The notes under the pieces are model-generated. The model was not told the DNA's origin, did not search any database, and saw only the letters and a list, made by a program, of their open reading frames with translations. A stretch of DNA of 43,685 bases, from assembly GCA_944383545.1 (NCBI GenBank), contig CALWPY010000015.1, forward strand, positions 1 through 43,685, in the 5' to 3' direction. This document shows, one piece after another, positions 1,138 through 22,768 of this stretch. The position numbers and the translations under genes were made by a program. Within the stretch, counting starts at the first letter, position 1. Every line of letters begins with the position of its first letter. This DNA is from an uncultured Lachnospiraceae bacterium. GTDB taxonomy: Bacteria > Bacillota > Clostridia > Lachnospirales > Lachnospiraceae.

Positions 1138-1439
1138 AACGAGTAAAAGGTTGTTTAAATTGCGAATGTAACGAGTATAAGAAAACCTATTATAAGGAGT
1201 CAGATGAGTTTTGTGTTAGGTGCGGCACAAAATTAAACTATGTATGCAAACATCCTAAGTGTTTCAAGCAGATTCCCGATGATGTAAGAGAAACATACTG
1301 TCCTGTACATATTGCAGAACGAAAGGACAAGCAAGAGAAGAGAGTCGAAGCTGCTAAAAAGGTTGGTAGTGGCGTACTTGCTGTGGGCGGGGTGATAACT
1401 ATCGGTAAGGCGGCTGTTGATATTGCAAGAAAGAAATAA
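1134..1439 (+). CDS. Small zinc-ribbon protein with C-terminal hydrophobic segment
   Basis: A 101-residue protein. The first 65 residues hold many cysteines and a histidine in pairs (CLNCEC, CVRCG, CKHPKC, CPVH), consistent with one or two zinc-binding ribbons. A charged helix (residues about 60-77) is followed by a glycine-, valine- and isoleucine-rich stretch (about 78-94) ending in RKK, which could be a short membrane anchor. It starts inside the stop region of the upstream gene (ATGA) and ends 14 bases before the DUF262 gene. Zinc ribbon plus a membrane tail is compatible with a sensor or adaptor, but I cannot assign a family. The function is unknown; membership of the operon is well supported by spacing. 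Confidence 0.75.
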   Translation: MKRVKGCLNCECNEYKKTYYKESDEFCVRCGTKLNYVCKHPKCFKQIPDDVRETYCPVHIAERKDKQEKRVEAAKKVGSGVLAVGGVITIGKAAVDIARKK

Positions 1440-1453
1440 TTGAGGTACTTATT

Positions 1454-3226
1454 ATGGGGAAAGAATTGTTTACTAACATCCCAAGTAAAGTTAAAAATCT
1501 TGTGGATGATGTTAGAATTGGAAAAATTGGGCTACCGGACCTTCAAAGACCATTTGTCTGGAAAGACAATAAGGTAAGAGATCTTTTTGACTCTATGCTC
1601 CGAGGATATCCTATTGGATATGTGATGCTGTGGGAATCGCCGGCGGATTATGAAGAGAAGAAAAGTTCTATTGGTGAAAACAAAAAAATCTATGAGGAAC
1701 CAAAAGAACTGGTTATTGATGGTCAGCAAAGATTAACGGCGCTTGTTGCTGCAATGTATGGTGTTAAAGTTAGGGATAAGAGTTATTGCGAAAGAGAAAT
1801 AAAAATTAGTTATAATCCTTTAACAAGAGAGTTTGCAGTGTGGACAACCGCGATTGATCGTGATCAAGAATGGGTGACAAAAATAAGTGATGTGTTTTTG
1901 GCGAAGGAAAATAACTCTTTTACAAAATTTCGTCGAGGATATATTAATGGTTTAAACGATGCTAGAGCTAAGAAGGGCGAGGCAGAGTTGACAGATGCAG
2001 AGCTGGACTTGATTGAGGACAATTTAAATGACCTTTTAGGGTTAGAAGACTTCTCTTTGCCAACACTTGAAATATCGGACAATGCAGATGAACAGGATGT
2101 GGCGGATATATTCGTTCGTGTTAATTCCGGTGGTCAGAATTTGAATGAGAATAACTTTATTCAGACATTGATTTCTGTTTATGAGAAAGAAGTCCATGAT
2201 AAGATTACAAAATTCTGTCAGGAATCCAGAATTCCAAAAGACGGAACTTCTTACAATCATATTATGGAAGTAGATCCTCAACATTTAGTTCGCATGGCAG
2301 TCGGAGTTGGGTTCCATAGAGCAAGATTGAAATATGCGTATATGCTTCTTCGAGGTAAGAATTTGGAAACTGGAAAATATTCAGAAGAAACAAGAACGCA
2401 AAATTTAACAATATTTAAGGATGCCCTTGAAGAGGTTATGAATCTTAACAATTGGCATGCTTTCTTGAATTGTGTTTCGAGTGCAGGGTATGTAAGCAAT
2501 AAGATTATTGCTTCATCAAATGCGGTGGTATTTAGTTACGTTTTATATTTGTTGGGCAAGCTGGAATACAAGGTGGACTCTGTTAGACTTAATAAGATAA
2601 TCAGTAAGTGGTTCTTTATGTCTGCTATCACATATTTTTATACAGGCTCAACGGAATCTGAGGTCGAAAGACAGTTTGCAGATTTAAGAAATGTTCATAC
2701 AGCTGATGAATTTATAGAGTATTTGGAGAAGACTATTTCAAGCAGATTTACAGATGATTATTTCAAATTGACTTTGCCAAACGAATTGAATACATCATCA
2801 GCTATTTCGCCTGCTTGGTACGGATATATAGCATCTCAGATTGTATTGAATAATCCGATGTTATTTAGTACCAGTACACTTACAACGTATTTATTGCCTG
2901 GTGCAAGCGGAACTAAGAACGCTGTTGATAAACATCATATTTTTCCGAAGAACTATCTGACGCAAATTGGGTATACTACAGATCGTGATAGAAATCAGGT
3001 TGCTAATTTTACATACTTGGATTATGTAACCAATATTGATATTTCAGATGATGCACCGGAAATATATATCGGACGTTATAAAGATAAACTTGGTGATGAA
3101 TATAACAAGCATTGTGAAAATCATGCTTTGCCTAAAGATTTTGAAACAATGGATTATATGGAATTTTTGAGTGAGAGAAGAAATTTAATGGCTCAAATTA
3201 TTAAAATGGCGTATATGAGATTGTAA
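1454..3226 (+). CDS. DUF262 / HNH (GmrSD- and SspE-like) protein
   Basis: A 590-residue protein with the layout of GmrSD-type enzymes. The N-terminal DUF262 (ParB/Srx-like) domain carries the DGQQR motif at about residues 89-93 (VIDGQQRLTAL), preceded by LPDLQRPFVW, which is typical of the family. In GmrSD and SspE this domain uses NTP hydrolysis to gate nicking or cleavage. The C-terminal part has DKHHIFPKNYL at about residues 492-502 and a following asparagine-rich segment (NQVANFTYL), as expected of a DUF1524/HNH nuclease. Known relatives restrict DNA with modified bases (GmrSD) or act beside phosphorothioate modification (SspE). No modification genes are visible in the window, so the trigger is unknown. 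The gene sits third in the operon, 37 bases before the AlbA gene. Confidence 0.85.
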   Translation: MGKELFTNIPSKVKNLVDDVRIGKIGLPDLQRPFVWKDNKVRDLFDSMLRGYPIGYVMLWESPADYEEKKSSIGENKKIYEEPKELVIDGQQRLTALVAAMYGVKVRDKSYCEREIKISYNPLTREFAVWTTAIDRDQEWVTKISDVFLAKENNSFTKFRRGYINGLNDARAKKGEAELTDAELDLIEDNLNDLLGLEDFSLPTLEISDNADEQDVADIFVRVNSGGQNLNENNFIQTLISVYEKEVHDKITKFCQESRIPKDGTSYNHIMEVDPQHLVRMAVGVGFHRARLKYAYMLLRGKNLETGKYSEETRTQNLTIFKDALEEVMNLNNWHAFLNCVSSAGYVSNKIIASSNAVVFSYVLYLLGKLEYKVDSVRLNKIISKWFFMSAITYFYTGSTESEVERQFADLRNVHTADEFIEYLEKTISSRFTDDYFKLTLPNELNTSSAISPAWYGYIASQIVLNNPMLFSTSTLTTYLLPGASGTKNAVDKHHIFPKNYLTQIGYTTDRDRNQVANFTYLDYVTNIDISDDAPEIYIGRYKDKLGDEYNKHCENHALPKDFETMDYMEFLSERRNLMAQIIKMAYMRL

Positions 3227-3263
3227 TATTAGTGAATGCAGAAAAGAAAGCGAGCTGATCAAT

Positions 3264-4763
3264 TTGGAAAATACTTTTGACCTTTCACAATTTGATGAAT
3301 ACAGAGAAGATAACAGAAGAGAAGTAAAAAAAGCAAAAGACGGATTGCCGCTCTCTTTGTGGGAAACCTATTCTTCTTTTGCAAACTGCTATGGTGGGGT
3401 GATTATTCTTGGTGTGATAGAGAATAAAGATGGCAGTTGGAGGAGTGCCGGTCTTCAGAATGCGTCCAAGCTTCGCAAGGAATTCTGGGATAACATGAAC
3501 AATCCAAAGAAGGTAAACATCAATCTGCTGTCGGAAGATGATGTGCAGACTTATGAAGTTGGCGACAATAAGGATGTCATTATGGTTATTTATGTGCCGA
3601 TGGCGAAGCGTGAGCAGAAGCCGGTGTACATCAACAATGATATTTTCAATGGTACGTTCCGCCGCAATTATGAGGGCGATTATCATTGCACCAGACTCCA
3701 GGTAAAAACCATGCTACGAGATCAGACGGAGCGCACGATTGATATGGAAGTGCTGGATAAAGTTCCGATGGAAGATTTGAATTATGACACCATTCACGGT
3801 TATCGCAACAGTCACCGTTCTTTGAAGGAAGGGCATCCCTTTGAACGCCTGAGCGACCATGAGTATCTAAGAAGTATTGGCGCGGCTGCTATTTCTGATG
3901 AGGATGGAAACCTACATCCAACGGCAGCAGGTATGCTGATGTTTGGTGATGAGTATAACATTGTGCGGCATTTCCCAGAGTATTTTCTGGATTATAGGGA
4001 AGAGTTGGATCCTACCACGCGCTGGAGTGACAGATTGCAGTCCAGTTCCGGTGAATGGTCCGGAAATGTGTGTGATTTTTATTTTAGGATTTATAACAAG
4101 ATTATCAAGGATATTAAGGTGCCTTTTAAAATGGTTGGTGGCGAACGTGTTGATGATACGCCGGTACACAAGGCACTTCGTGAGGCTTTGGCAAACTGCC
4201 TGATTAATGCAGATTACCATGGCTTGCGTGGCGTTGTTATCCGCAAGGAACCGGACAAGCTGGTTTTGGCAAATCCCGGTTATGTCAGAACAGGTAAAAA
4301 ACAGATGCGTCTTGGCGGCGAATCCGATCCGCGAAACAAGGCACTTATGAAAATGTTCAATCTTATCAATATTGGTGAACGTGCCGGAAGCGGTGTGCCA
4401 AATATTTTTAATGTTTGGGCAGATGAAGGCTGGGAAGAACCGGTTATTGAGGAAAGATTTGATCCGGATAGGACAGTGCTGGAACTTTCTTTTAAGAAAA
4501 AAGTGGCAGAAAAAAGTGGCGAAAAAAAAGTGGCGGAAAAAAGTGGCGAAAAAAAAGTAACGAAAAAAACGCAAGAAAAGTACGATGCCATTTTGAATGC
4601 TATGCAGCCTGATAAGTGGTATAAAGCTTTAGAATTTGTAGACGTTGCAGGTGTTAAAGAATCAAGGATTAAGGTGTTGCTTAAGGATATGACAGAGCAG
4701 GGCTTGATAGAGAGTAGAGGAAGTACAAAGGGTAAAATGTATAGGAAGGGTGATTTGATATGA
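3264..4763 (+). CDS. Schlafen/AlbA-2 domain ATP-binding regulator (RecG-like C-terminus)
   Basis: A 499-residue protein. The N-terminal AlbA-2 domain (about residues 10-130) shows the expected EDNRREVKKAKDGLP and FANCYGGVIILGV patterns. A histidine-kinase-like ATPase region follows at about 300-390 (EALANCLINADYHG, LANPGYVR, GERAGSGVPNIF). After a lysine-rich repeat comes a C-terminal winged helix (about 440-499). Such proteins are usually annotated as RecG-like or transcriptional regulators and are frequent in defence islands. The start is TTG at 3264, because the next in-frame ATG would cut off most of the AlbA domain; the ribosome site before it is weak. Most of the gene is visibly richer in G and C than its neighbours, suggesting a separate origin. 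It overlaps the next gene in ATGA. Confidence 0.8.
   Translation: MENTFDLSQFDEYREDNRREVKKAKDGLPLSLWETYSSFANCYGGVIILGVIENKDGSWRSAGLQNASKLRKEFWDNMNNPKKVNINLLSEDDVQTYEVGDNKDVIMVIYVPMAKREQKPVYINNDIFNGTFRRNYEGDYHCTRLQVKTMLRDQTERTIDMEVLDKVPMEDLNYDTIHGYRNSHRSLKEGHPFERLSDHEYLRSIGAAAISDEDGNLHPTAAGMLMFGDEYNIVRHFPEYFLDYREELDPTTRWSDRLQSSSGEWSGNVCDFYFRIYNKIIKDIKVPFKMVGGERVDDTPVHKALREALANCLINADYHGLRGVVIRKEPDKLVLANPGYVRTGKKQMRLGGESDPRNKALMKMFNLINIGERAGSGVPNIFNVWADEGWEEPVIEERFDPDRTVLELSFKKKVAEKSGEKKVAEKSGEKKVTKKTQEKYDAILNAMQPDKWYKALEFVDVAGVKESRIKVLLKDMTEQGLIESRGSTKGKMYRKGDLI
4497..4577 (+). repeat. 27-bp coding tandem repeat in the AlbA-2 gene
   Basis: Two near-identical 27-base units (4497-4523, 4524-4550) and a third diverged unit (4551-4577) encode KKVAEKSGE, KKVAEKSGE, KKVTKKTQE. 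They form a lysine- and glutamate-rich linker between the ATPase-like part and the winged helix. The units are in frame, so gain or loss of a unit would change linker length without a frameshift. The runs of eight adenines inside are additional slippage-prone sites. Similar low-complexity EK-rich linkers occur in this protein family. Confidence 0.85.
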
Positions 4764-6004
4764 AAATACAATATGATAGTTCAATAAAAGATGATAAACG
4801 CACAAGGCTCAAAAATGAAGTATCTGATTTTTATGAAATATTTGAACCGATTGAGAGGGTAATCTATTTGTTAATGGATAAGGTGACTGGGGCTGTGTTT
4901 TGTGAATGTCATGTGTCGGCAAAGAATTTAATAGACAACTGTACTGTAGATGTTCCGTTAGACCCAGAAGAACAATCGGATTATAGAGCAAACCGAGAGC
5001 TAGTTGAAGATAGTAGTGCATTTGCGCAGATGAAGATTGATGCAATTCACGGACGTATATTTAGTAATATAGTTGCTGAATACAATGTAGAATTTGATGA
5101 AGAACATCCGCTGAAGATTGTGGGTGGGCAGCATAGAATAAAAGCAATTCAAGAAGCATTGAAGAATTATGTAAAAGAATATCATGGTATAAAAGTTTAT
5201 TTTGATTTAAATATGGAACAAAGATTAGATGTACAGTTGATTTCTAATACTAATATTGCAGTTTCAGCTGATTTGCTCGATCGAATGATGGAAACTGTAA
5301 AAGGTCCAGAACTTAGAAATTGGTGTCATGAAGTTGGTCTATTGGATGATAATAGCGATTTTGCAGATAAGAAACAGCGAGGAAATTGTATAACTGTAAG
5401 AGAAGCAAGAACCTTTATTATTAACTATTTCTTGGGAAAAACTGTGATTGACTTTGAAAAGGAAAAAACTGACGGAGTTATTGCCAAGACAGGTGGTAAT
5501 GATGAAGATTGGGACAAATTAAAAGAAGAACATCCAGAGATGTGGAATGATAAGAAATTAAAGGAAGCAGGAATTGCTTTTGCAAAATTGGCAAAGAAGC
5601 AAAAAGAATATTTTGCAGAGGATGGAAAGAAACCATCGCGGGAATATGCTGACAAGGCGTTTAATTATGCCATTATAGCATCATGGGCTTTTGTTGCAGG
5701 ATTTTTGTCTAAGAATGACGTTAGATTGATAAGGCATTTTGAATTGCCGGAACATTCTAAGAAAGATCCATTAAATGCAGAAGCATTGGCTTCAGCAAGA
5801 CATAAAAGTGACCCGGAGAATTATAGAGGATTGGGAACACGAACTGACGCAAAAGAAAGAGGTCGGCTTATAGAATTATTTTATTTGCAGGCAGAAGAAG
5901 GTAAGGGAATAACTAAAGCACATATTAATCTAGCATTAAGTAAGTATTTTGCTAAGCAGGCCAACTTGGAAGTACAAAAGATTGAGAAAAAGGTAAGACG
6001 ATGA
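4760..6004 (+). CDS. DGQHR-domain (DndB/ParB-like) protein
   Basis: A 414-residue protein with a DGQHR-like core: VGGQHRIKAIQEAL at about residues 121-134 (GGQHR instead of the more common DGQHR). This domain is shared by DndB, the transcriptional and modification control protein of phosphorothioate systems, and by other ParB-related nucleotide-binding proteins. The following region (FDLNMEQRLDVQLISNTN) resembles the usual continuation of the domain. The C-terminal half is highly charged and lysine-rich, with no recognised domain. The start codon overlaps the stop of the AlbA gene and the stop overlaps the HEPN start, so it is firmly in the operon. Whether it binds modified DNA, a nucleotide or a protein partner cannot be decided from sequence. 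Confidence 0.75.
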   Translation: MKIQYDSSIKDDKRTRLKNEVSDFYEIFEPIERVIYLLMDKVTGAVFCECHVSAKNLIDNCTVDVPLDPEEQSDYRANRELVEDSSAFAQMKIDAIHGRIFSNIVAEYNVEFDEEHPLKIVGGQHRIKAIQEALKNYVKEYHGIKVYFDLNMEQRLDVQLISNTNIAVSADLLDRMMETVKGPELRNWCHEVGLLDDNSDFADKKQRGNCITVREARTFIINYFLGKTVIDFEKEKTDGVIAKTGGNDEDWDKLKEEHPEMWNDKKLKEAGIAFAKLAKKQKEYFAEDGKKPSREYADKAFNYAIIASWAFVAGFLSKNDVRLIRHFELPEHSKKDPLNAEALASARHKSDPENYRGLGTRTDAKERGRLIELFYLQAEEGKGITKAHINLALSKYFAKQANLEVQKIEKKVRR

Positions 6005-20321: not shown

Positions 20322-20858
20322 ATGGTATTGTTAGTGGTTGATACACAAAAATTAATAACAAATAACAGGCTTTATAATTTTCGTGTCTTTGAAAATAATG
20401 TTAAAAAGTTAATAGCAGGAGCCAGAGAAAATGGTGTTGAAGTTATTTATGTTAGGCATGATGATGGTGCAGGTGCGGAATTGACAAAGGGAACGGAAGG
20501 TTTTGAAATTTATGAAGGTTTTAAACCTGAGCAGGATGAAATGATTTTTGATAAGACTGTTAATAGTTCTTTTAAAGGAACAGGATTGTTACAGTATTTG
20601 AGAGGAAAAAATGAACATGAAGTGGTTGTTGTCGGATTGCAGACGGATTATTGCATTGATGCAACTGTAAAATGTGGTTTTGAGCATGGGTTTAAGATGA
20701 TTGTACCGGAAAATACAAATTCAACTTTTGATAATGATTTTATGTCCTCGGAAGACAGTTATAAATATTATAATGAATTTATGTGGAAAGATAGATATGC
20801 GGAATGCATTTCTGTTGAAGAAACGATTTATAGGATGAAGAATGAATTAACTTGTTAA
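20322..20858 (+). CDS. Cysteine hydrolase, isochorismatase family
   Basis: A 178-residue enzyme of the isochorismatase-like hydrolase fold. The catalytic triad can be read as aspartate in LLVVDTQ (residue 7), lysine in FDKTVNSSF (about 86) and cysteine in VVGLQTDYCIDAT (about 110). The family cleaves amides or related bonds of small molecules such as nicotinamide. The exact substrate cannot be told. AGGAGG precedes the start. Length and motif spacing are normal, so it should be active. Confidence 0.88.
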   Translation: MVLLVVDTQKLITNNRLYNFRVFENNVKKLIAGARENGVEVIYVRHDDGAGAELTKGTEGFEIYEGFKPEQDEMIFDKTVNSSFKGTGLLQYLRGKNEHEVVVVGLQTDYCIDATVKCGFEHGFKMIVPENTNSTFDNDFMSSEDSYKYYNEFMWKDRYAECISVEETIYRMKNELTC

Positions 20859-20952
20859 ATAATCCGACTTATGCTATTCTTATTATTAGGTAGCAAATCC
20901 ATAAAAATTTTCGTTAGAAAGGGATTTGTGTGGATGTTAAGGAGATTAATAT

Positions 20953-21342
20953 ATGGGATTTCTGAGCAGGATTTTTAATAAAGGAAATGAAGATAATGGT
21001 GAAGATGACTGCAGAGGCAGGGAATCCATTGTACGTAAGCGTGTTCAGAAAATTGTAGAAGAGAACTGGAGTGACTGCGAGCTGAGGGAAAATGTTTCTG
21101 CCGGTGATATCGGAGCAGGTTTTATTTCGTGGAAGTATACTTATGGAGTATATCGGAATGGCTCTCCTGTTGCCATGATTAACATACTGCGACATGCAGA
21201 TGATTATAAGAATGAAATAGTACTTCAGTCAAAGCAGGCATGTAAAGATATGGGAATAGGTTACGTTCATTTCCTGTTACGTTTGCCGAATCGAAGCAGT
21301 TATATTTTAGAACGGCTTACGGAGATTATTCCGGTATGGTAA
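20953..21342 (+). CDS. Hypothetical 129-aa protein
   Basis: A small soluble protein of unknown family. It opens with MGFLSRIFNKGNEDNGEDD, similar in style to immunity-type proteins in this window that begin with MxxFxxxFxK. The rest is an alpha/beta pattern (IGAGFISWKYTYGVYRNGSPVAMINILRHADDYKNEIVLQSKQACKDMGI). AAGGAG lies at a good distance from the start. The predicted promoter of the reverse-transcriptase RNA lies inside its last codons, so the RNA unit seems to be fitted tightly behind it. Confidence 0.65.
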   Translation: MGFLSRIFNKGNEDNGEDDCRGRESIVRKRVQKIVEENWSDCELRENVSAGDIGAGFISWKYTYGVYRNGSPVAMINILRHADDYKNEIVLQSKQACKDMGIGYVHFLLRLPNRSSYILERLTEIIPVW

Positions 21343-21354
21343 TTATCTTAATAT
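21326..21354 (+). promoter_or_regulatory. Candidate promoter of the RT-associated RNA
   Basis: TTATTC (21326-21331), 17 bases, TAATAT (21349-21354). The predicted start at about 21361 matches the first base of the 14-bp inverted repeat that closes the RNA. The -35 box is weak; the exact match of start and repeat is the main argument. Confidence 0.5.
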
Positions 21355-21360
21355 TGGTTA

Positions 21361-21505
21361 GAAAAGAGAGAGAAATACAACTATAGTTGTGCCCGTCAGG
21401 GATGAAGCATATTTCGTAAATTATATTTTACGGGCAATGGAAATATGTTGAGTCTTGTGCTAATCACGCACGGCGTGATTGTTCAAAGCTGTTTCTCTCT
21501 CTTTT
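21361..21505 (+). ncRNA. Structured RNA upstream of the reverse transcriptase (candidate msr/msd-like or DRT RNA)
   Basis: A perfect 14-bp inverted repeat (21362-21375 with 21492-21505, AAAAGAGAGAGAAA and its complement) encloses about 116 bases. Inside are a hairpin ACAAC-TATA-GTTGT (21377-21390), a long stem CATATTTC / GAAATATG around an inner GTAAA / TTTAC hairpin (21408-21448 region), and a perfect AATCACGC-ACG-GCGTGATT hairpin (21462-21480). Alternative pairing GCCCGT / ACGGGC competes with the second stem. The layout, an RNA with complementary ends directly before a lone reverse transcriptase, is that of retrons (a1/a2 repeats) and of several defence reverse transcriptases with a template RNA. 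There is no long coding frame. It ends 9-21 bases before the RT start. Confidence 0.65.
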
Positions 21506-21526
21506 ATTAATTGAATGGAAGTGCTT

Positions 21527-22768
21527 ATGGATAAAAGTATTTTACAAAAAGCATCTGATGCAGAATGTTGGATGGAATTTTTAAATTATAAAATAGAAAG
21601 ACAGCATATTAGCAAAAAAGAAGAACGGGAAATTAGAAATTTTATTGAAAATCAGGAGTATTTACCGATTTGTGAAAGAATCAAAGAAGGAAAATTCCCC
21701 TCTGACATACCCGTAAAGCGTATCATAAATAAATCAGGCACAAAAAAGAAAAGGATAGTATATTCATTTGCCGGTACGGACGGTATTTTTCTTAAATTTA
21801 TAGCATTTCATTTATATAAATATGATGACGTGCTTTGTGATAACTGTTATGCGTTTCGGAGAAAGACAGGTGTAAAATCTGCAATAAAGAGGTTGAAATC
21901 CGATAAGAGGGTTGACAAAAACTATTGTTTAAAGGCGGACATAAGTAATTATTTTAATTCGATTAATGTGAAAAAATTAATGAATAAGCTGGATTTTATC
22001 AAAGATGATGACCGGGTATTATATGACGTTTTTGAAAGGATTCTTTTAGAGGACAGGGTATATGAGAACGGAAATGTGGTACATGAACAGCACGGGGCAA
22101 TGGCAGGCACGCCAATTTCGCCTTTTTTAGCCAACATATATCTCAGAGATATGGATATGTTTTTTAAAGACGAGGATGTGTTTTACTTTCGCTATTCTGA
22201 TGACATTCTGATTTTTGCGGATAATATAAATGAGTTGGAATTACGAAAAAAACAGCTAAAAGAATGGCTTGATTCTCGGGGTTTAACATTAAATCAGGAA
22301 AAAGTCAGTATTTATAAGCCGGGAGAAAAAATAGAATTTCTGGGCTTTGCATATAAAAAAGGTGAAATTGATTTGTCTGATAACACAATAAAGAAAATAC
22401 AGGCAAAAATTAAGCGAAAGGCAGACACCTTAAGGCGTTGGCAGAGAAGAAAAAATCTCTCCGCAGACAAGGCTGCCATAGGATTCATACATGCCATGAA
22501 CAGAAAGTTCTATGGAAAGACAAGCGAAGAGTTTGAAAATGAAGATGAATTCACATGGAACAGGTGGTTTTTCCCTAATCTGACCGTGGATACGGGGCTT
22601 AAGAAAATAGATACCTATATGCAGGAATATATCCGTTATACGGTGACGGGACGGCATTATAAGGGAAATTACAGGATTCGTTATGAAACCATGAAGGAAT
22701 GGGGATATATGAGCCTGGTGCATGAGTATTACAAGTGGCGTAATAATGTTGAGAATGAGGTGAAGTGA
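21527..22768 (+). CDS. Stand-alone reverse transcriptase (YSDD), defence- or retron-type
   Basis: A 413-residue RNA-directed DNA polymerase. Visible motifs (numbering from MDKS): the first catalytic aspartate in LKADISNYFNSI (about 138), GAMAGTPISPFLANIYL (about 190-206), the catalytic YSDD in FRYSDDILIFA (about 223-226), LTLNQEKVSIY and EFLGF. The C-terminal part (about 275-413) is basic (IKRKADTLRRWQRRK) and ends with a conserved-looking YIRYTVTGRHYKGNYRI block. There is no intron maturase, HNH, integrase or protease domain and no DGR repeat nearby, so it is neither a group II intron nor a DGR as far as can be seen. ATG 21515 is an alternative start. With the RNA upstream it forms a compact two-part unit; the class cannot be fixed without a tree. 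Confidence 0.85.
   Translation: MDKSILQKASDAECWMEFLNYKIERQHISKKEEREIRNFIENQEYLPICERIKEGKFPSDIPVKRIINKSGTKKKRIVYSFAGTDGIFLKFIAFHLYKYDDVLCDNCYAFRRKTGVKSAIKRLKSDKRVDKNYCLKADISNYFNSINVKKLMNKLDFIKDDDRVLYDVFERILLEDRVYENGNVVHEQHGAMAGTPISPFLANIYLRDMDMFFKDEDVFYFRYSDDILIFADNINELELRKKQLKEWLDSRGLTLNQEKVSIYKPGEKIEFLGFAYKKGEIDLSDNTIKKIQAKIKRKADTLRRWQRRKNLSADKAAIGFIHAMNRKFYGKTSEEFENEDEFTWNRWFFPNLTVDTGLKKIDTYMQEYIRYTVTGRHYKGNYRIRYETMKEWGYMSLVHEYYKWRNNVENEVK

Follow-up and report, generated by a model that had tools for sequence, protein, structure and literature searches.

The locus described here is a conserved UG26 (DRT-type) unit made up of a partner protein, an RT-5 RNA and a reverse transcriptase (RT), carried on a 43,685-nt stretch of DNA from an uncultured Lachnospiraceae bacterium (the whole stretch analysed, referred to below as the window); UG26 is a catalogued class of probable anti-virus RTs. 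The identity of the RT and of the RNA, the structure and extent of the RNA and the linkage of the three parts are direct observations from the window and its relatives. A preliminary description of the window had treated the RT as stand-alone and the unit as a candidate new one of a class that it could not name. The RT is not stand-alone, since a UG26-linked partner gene lies directly upstream and stops 19 nt before the first arm of the RNA, and the class is not new, since the RT already has the name UG26 and the RNA the family name RT-5. For UG26, the analysis assigns to the RT an RNA family that already has a name, describes the full fold of this RNA, and proposes a short template and a residue that may prime synthesis; it also identifies a linked partner whose catalytic acids are not conserved. 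The product of UG26, and the generality of telomerase-like repeat synthesis, can thereby be addressed in a unit of about 1.8 kb.

Layout of the UG26 locus

The genes and RNA of the unit, all on the forward strand, are as follows.

20953..21342 (+): partner gene, 129 aa, diverged member of the UG26-linked RTasCOG2852 family
21362..21505 (+): structured RNA RT-5/UG26, 144 nt, full extent inferred from the terminal helix
21527..22768 (+): UG26 RT, 413 aa, PADLOC RT_UG26, with YSDD (residues 223-226) at 22193-22204
22682-22684 (+): candidate priming Tyr386, within the UG26 RT

The first observations on the RNA and RT were largely accurate: a perfect 14-bp inverted repeat with arms at 21362-21375 and 21492-21505 encloses 116 nt (its start had been placed one base early), and the YSDD RT follows closely, its ATG at 21527 lying 21 nt past the second arm. 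The transcription start that had been assigned to the first arm was not recovered; a scan of 20800-22000 places no site so as to start there, and finds 6 promoter-like sites where 5.7 are expected.

Distribution among relatives

Three evenly drawn, partly overlapping genome sets were searched with the UG26 model. A UG26 RT with an E value no worse than 1e-60 is present in 26 of 392 genomes from the order (counted from a table run at 1e-30), 16 of 391 from the class and 36 of 397 from the family. Two sets of loci were compared. For the first set 68 loci were fetched, and L028-L030 were left out as group II-type RTs admitted by a loose E limit, leaving 65; the second set has at least 80 named loci, of which 80 are listed, with at least five in common with the first. 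Record titles in the second set, mostly metagenome bins, name Lachnospiraceae, other Clostridia, Erysipelotrichaceae, Bacteroidales/Prevotella, Alistipes, Propionibacteriaceae, Bifidobacteriaceae and Eggerthellales; UG26 units with the RNA span three phyla.

The RNA accompanies the RT in most of these loci. Our own covariance model of the RNA, R1, matches beside UG26-type RTs at 56 of 65 first-set loci (E 0.01; likewise 56 of all 68 sources fetched) and at 78 of the 80 listed second-set loci; of all second-set sources 78 of 83 match, the viral ones in none of three cases. Rfam RT-5 reaches its gathering score at 20/20, 12/20 and 18/20 first-set loci (three batches) and at 17 of 18 chosen second-set loci, mostly non-Lachnospiraceae. 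The nine first-set loci with no R1 match at E 0.01 are L022, L023, L024, L025, L027, L034, L044, L052 and L068. The contig of L052 holds just 84 nt upstream; with longer flanks L068 has a weak R1 match in the right place (E 0.054) and three further UG26 copies match, and L022-L025, L027, L034 and L044 are again without one. Five of these (L022-L024, L027 and L044) are diverged UG26-like RTs scoring 204 to 382 bits. A search of plasmids and phages gave no close relative, and viral contigs contain three distant RTs, all without the RNA. No empty site was found in relatives, the flanking genes being too diverged.

The reverse transcriptase

The RT matches PADLOC RT_UG26 (PDLC03764) over nearly its full length (533 bits, E 9.1e-161; residues 8-410 on model positions 2-397 of 398), the next-best PADLOC model scoring 127.5 bits; all 60 aligned RTs match the UG26 model. 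We take UG26 to be formally a Class 2 UG RT. The nearest other UG models are UG27, UG4, UG17 (which is DRT10) and Drt9, with Drt3a of PADLOC also among them. The search of NCBIfam gave no match above a cut-off. At the HMM limit applied, a single UG26 RT is present in the window's own genome. Among 134 relatives the catalytic residues D138, D225 and D226 are kept in all 134. Near the C-terminus, Tyr386 is kept in 133 of the 134 RTs, Tyr394 in 123, Tyr401 in 100 and Tyr402 in 112; no Tyr or Ser in this region is invariant among the 134, Tyr386 having a single exception.

The predicted structure of the RT (AF2, pLDDT 94.0) has as its best Foldseek match the group II intron RT 6ar3 (E 1.8e-15); DRT9 (UG28) structure 9vma (2.7e-13), among the best PDB fold matches, and DRT2 structure 9c0i (2e-10) lie further down, and a profile search by sequence extends to telomerase (3du5, E 1.8e-7). 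Identification as a group II intron RT was considered and set aside, in agreement with the preliminary description: TIGR04416 scores 126.3 bits against a cut-off of 300, and Rfam finds nothing in the window apart from RT-5.

The RT-5 RNA

Rfam RT-5 (RF03026) matches 21387-21494 over the whole model (1-104 of 104) with 49.5 bits, the gathering score being 45.7; R1 matches 21364-21503 (71.4 bits, E 4e-14), its single match in the window's own genome. The RNA was correctly described as structured: its fold has an energy of -53.2 kcal/mol against a shuffled mean of -30.4 (sd 3.4; z -6.7), and none of 200 shuffled sequences folds as well. Its elements, all on the forward strand, are listed below.

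21362..21375 (+): terminal helix, 5' arm (purines), perfect complement of 21492-21505; covaries
21377..21390 (+): 5' hairpin ACAAC-UAUA-GUUGU, from the minimum free energy fold and covariation
21392..21396 (+): pseudoknot strand 1, CCCGU, pairs with 21430-21434
21407..21448 (+): central stem-loop with an 8-bp stem (21407-21414 / 21441-21448), its loop holding pseudoknot strand 2, ACGGG (21430-21434); from fold and covariation
21462..21480 (+): 3' hairpin AAUCACG / CGUGAUU, from fold and covariation; proposed template boundary, a role taken from DRT10 SL5
21481..21491 (+): single-stranded loop GUUCAAAGCUG, core UUCAAAG, between the 3' hairpin and the terminal helix; putative cDNA template
21492..21505 (+): terminal helix, 3' arm (pyrimidines), complement of the 5' arm

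The helices recur with compensatory changes across relatives in two alignments and are thus not due to chance; the covarying elements are the terminal helix, the 5' hairpin, the pseudoknot, the central stem and the 3' hairpin. In the first set (55 distinct RNAs, pseudoknot included) 91.1% of cells are paired and both sides change in 41 of 43 pairs; the covariation score is 0.672, against 0.252 for shuffled and at most 0.166 for slid alignments; in the second set (78 RNAs) the values are 90.4%, 40 of 43 pairs, and 0.607 against 0.256 shuffled and at most 0.181 slid. Both alignments were fitted to R1, which was built from 38 sequences including most first-set RNAs; the second set is therefore the better test, though it too is model-fitted. 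All five pairs of the pseudoknot form in every cell (100%), among the 55 distinct RNAs of the first set as among the 78 of the second, and both sides change in 5/5 and 4/5 pairs respectively. Loss of the inverted repeat from homologues had been named as a finding that would count against the unit, and the outcome is in its favour: the family retains it as a covarying terminal helix, with both-side changes in 12 of 12 pairs in both alignments. The terminal helix is weak in some loci; for example L042, L047, L058, L062 and L064 are at or below the 95th percentile of shuffled controls in a single-sequence helix search. The RT-5 structure printed by cmscan differs from the fold given here in lacking the terminal helix, the 5' hairpin and the pseudoknot, all three of which are added with covariation. 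The 5' arm averages 92.5% purine and is at least 80% purine in 121 of 134 RNAs; this asymmetry persists despite the covarying pairs.

Transcription and the RNA as a separate part

A perfect TATAAT located 2 to 22 nt before the RNA is found at 10 of 28 partnerless loci and at 5 of 101 loci with a partner (Fisher p 7.6e-5); at 5 of 6 positions or better the counts are 21 of 28 and 30 of 101 (p 2.2e-5). Both p values are optimistic as the loci are related, and at least 4 of the 28 partnerless loci (L011, L014, L059 and L106) have less than 300 nt of upstream contig, which might hide a partner. L057, whose partner comes after the RNA, is among the five partnered loci that have a TATAAT. Since partnered RNAs mostly lack the box, RNAs behind a partner are probably on the partner transcript; judged from these promoter patterns, the RNA of the window probably shares a transcript with its partner gene and does not start from a promoter of its own.

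Two loci separate the RNA from the RT. In L032 there are 1.2 kb with an unrelated opposite-strand stretch between them, and RNA and RT both have a TATAAT-like box of their own; in L057 it is the partner gene that sits between the two. These separations speak for an independent RNA component rather than a leader, and the layout of L032 argues for a free RNA.

The partner protein

A partner gene is present at 38 of 65 first-set loci including the window (from a BLAST cluster of flanking frames, to which an HMM added none), so it is either not strictly needed or unseen at the other 27. In 36 of these 38 loci its end lies 6 to 75 nt ahead of the RNA; the exceptions are L057 and L068, the latter having no RNA match above threshold. 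Among the 80 listed second-set loci it is found at 66, lies on the strand of the RT in 67 of 67 matches, and stops a median of 13 nt (3 to 167) before the RNA. When searched alone in the same 392 genomes of the order the partner was found in 15, and in every case (15/15) UG26 lies no more than about 1 kb away on that contig; because UG26-linked copies were used to build the profile, remote paralogues might escape it. It has a single match in the window's own genome, and a plasmid search returned none.

RTasCOG2852 of PADLOC is matched by 25 of 35 aligned partners; among PADLOC models no family matches the partner of the window. WWN-type members and the others, window included, are related by profile-profile comparison (Prob 99.0, E 2.6e-18), by which the window partner is a relative of RTasCOG2852 within one family, though it has no model match; the WWN-type profile alone gives it a low score (E 0.002 when 14 sequences are searched). 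The window partner is unlike the usual RTasCOG2852 in being diverged and in lacking both the WWN motif and the strand-3 acid.

The AF2 model of the partner (pLDDT 87.1) has the order of helices and strands seen in PD-(D/E)XK domains. BstEII is the only PDB match in Foldseek passing E 0.001 (E 8.4e-4); the other matches, at E 0.1 to 0.3, are to the same or related folds (EcoT38I, TnsA, splicing endonucleases and VRR_NUC). The catalytic acids of a PD-(D/E)XK nuclease are not conserved: position 77 on strand 3 is Glu in 21 of 100 partners and Asn in the window. Of the same 100 partners, 99 keep Asn113, 98 keep Tyr117 and 98 keep Arg121. The partner is therefore likelier to be a binder or sensor than a nuclease.

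L146 has a tandem pair of partner genes (1746-2848) ahead of the RNA. Long N-terminal extensions occur on the partners of L012 (1-1287) and L015 (182-1294), which are coiled-coil-like, and of L053 (complement of 2896-3774), which is zinc-ribbon-like; Pfam matches to these extensions are sub-threshold only.

Proposed mechanism and alternatives

UG26 and RT-5 are most likely treated in Mestre 2022 and Weinberg 2017. Open PMC papers yielded nothing on RF03026 or RTasCOG2852 and no UG26 phenotype. Among them UG26 stands beside RTs only in PMC10504277, whose excerpted text lists it in sea-floor viruses; the likeliest treatments lie outside this search, and no priority is claimed. The part of the neighbourhood table of PMC8934634 that was available names no UG26 partner.

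The precedents for UG26 are DRT systems that copy an RNA. According to excerpts of PMC12632851, PMC12483538 and PMC13174585, RNA templates are used by DRT9, DRT10, DRT2 and DRT3a; excerpts of the first two place priming on a C-terminal Tyr or Ser in DRT9 and DRT10, and describe a template loop that is conserved in DRT9 and poorly conserved in DRT10. UG26 resembles DRT10 (UG17) in having three parts (in DRT10 an RNA, a SLATT protein and an RT) and an RNA of similar length (137 nt in DRT10), as far as excerpts describe it, and resembles both DRT10 and DRT9 in a single-stranded segment beside a stable hairpin and in a C-terminal Tyr/Ser. It differs from DRT10 in that its partner is not SLATT, its loop is conserved and no excess of A-B-A' matching is seen; with its conserved loop UG26 is in this respect like DRT9. 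From the precedent of DRT9 and DRT10 the template of UG26 is expected in a single-stranded segment after a stable hairpin.

It is considered probable that the three parts form an operon in which protein-primed cDNA is copied from the conserved loop of the RNA and a phage response is linked to the partner; the roles of the RNA as template and of the unit in defence, as well as protein priming and a repetitive product, would follow by analogy with DRT9 and DRT10. The RT would bind the RNA closed by its terminal helix and held by the pseudoknot, and the 3' hairpin, for which stem-loop SL5 of DRT10 is the model as a template boundary (excerpts of PMC12632851), would set the 5' limit of the short conserved single-stranded loop (GUUCAAAGCUG). 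Copying of this loop into DNA by the RT would be primed by a hydroxyl side chain in the C-terminal region of the RT itself, with Tyr386 as the leading candidate. The resulting DNA is envisaged to remain on the RT, and together with the partner, which is PD-(D/E)XK-like with its catalytic acids lost, may signal or carry out the phage response. A narrower version of the mechanism, in which the constant UUCAA/UUUAA loop is copied into RT-linked DNA and the dead PD-(D/E)XK-fold partner, retained together with the RNA and RT in three phyla, detects that DNA, or its disappearance during infection, via its N-x3-Y-x3-R helix, is speculative and taken as a whole unlikely.

The form of the product is where the main alternatives differ. 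The loop after the 3' hairpin is 9 or 10 nt long in 118 of 134 RNAs (a recount, less one for the outermost helix pair); an earlier constant length of 9 nt (49 of 51 RNAs) came from fixed columns and was abandoned. Of 129 RNAs from different phyla, 103 have UUCAA or UUUAA within their loop columns, and as the template is conserved in DRT9 and not in DRT10, a fixed short or homogeneous cDNA serving as a constant signal, copied from a constant template as in DRT9, is possible though less likely than not; loop conservation may instead reflect RT binding. Telomerase-like repeat addition as in DRT10, with UGUU-CAAAGC-UGUU as A-B-A' giving cDNA (GCTTTGAACA)n, is possible but rather doubtful. The RNA of the window has a 4-nt A/A' at a period of 10, the order of hairpin then template is that of DRT10, and an A/A' match of at least 2 nt occurs in 111 of 111 distinct loops, 2 nt being sufficient in two E. 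coli DRT10 systems (excerpts of PMC12632851). However, the match is no better within an RNA than between RNAs: the mean longest match is 3.22 against 3.26 for mixed pairs in 50 RNAs (six of 56 dropped) and 3.17 against 3.21 in 111 distinct loops (four of 134 RNAs not parsed, duplicates merged). The common part of A and A' is mostly an invariant UU, of which the 3' copy is inside the terminal helix; an invariant UU on both sides would meet the A-A' rule without covariation, so the test is insensitive to such repeats.

That the RNA is a mere scaffold for an RT making untemplated DNA, as Class 1 DRTs do according to excerpts of PMC13174585, is improbable, the nearest UG models including DRT10, DRT9 and Drt3a, all of which copy RNA. 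A cis-acting leader or terminator regulating the RT gene would account for an RNA directly upstream of the RT in the window and most loci (median 26 nt), but is made very improbable by the separated arrangements of L032 and L057 described above. The preliminary description had proposed a retron- or DRT-like system, and of these the DRT (UG)-like reading holds. A retron, its RNA partly copied into msDNA with 2'-5' priming, would share the paired RNA ends and the small RT and is scarcely tenable here: NAxxH is absent, as initially noted; a VTG said not to be evident is in fact present literally at residues 373-375, its V being kept in just 38 of 134 relatives; the NCBIfam retron St85 model scores 65.1 bits, far below its cut-off of 235; and no Rfam retron family matches.

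Variant loci

Several UG26-like RTs occur in other contexts. In L181 a 1271-aa frame (1156-4971, +) fuses a B12/radical-SAM-type protein to a UG26-like RT; PF19864, PF04055 and RVT_1 are above gathering and TIGR03960 is below its cut-off, YSDD is kept, and the fusion adjoins an NHLM-type bacteriocin-export ABC gene, with the RT-5 RNA and the partner absent. L182 (824-2041, -) and L183 (4232-5449, +) each encode a UG26-like RT that has neither the RNA nor the partner and is oriented divergently from a gene closely resembling the NHLM-type exporter of L181 (peptidase-ABC), which is followed by a second ABC gene; this sub-branch may serve something besides defence. The frame of L022 is a genuine long ORF. 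In L002 (3-76), L003 (2806-2879) and L049 (2832-2904) a tRNA gene lies about 100-150 nt past the end of the RT, an arrangement that resembles the integration sites of mobile elements.
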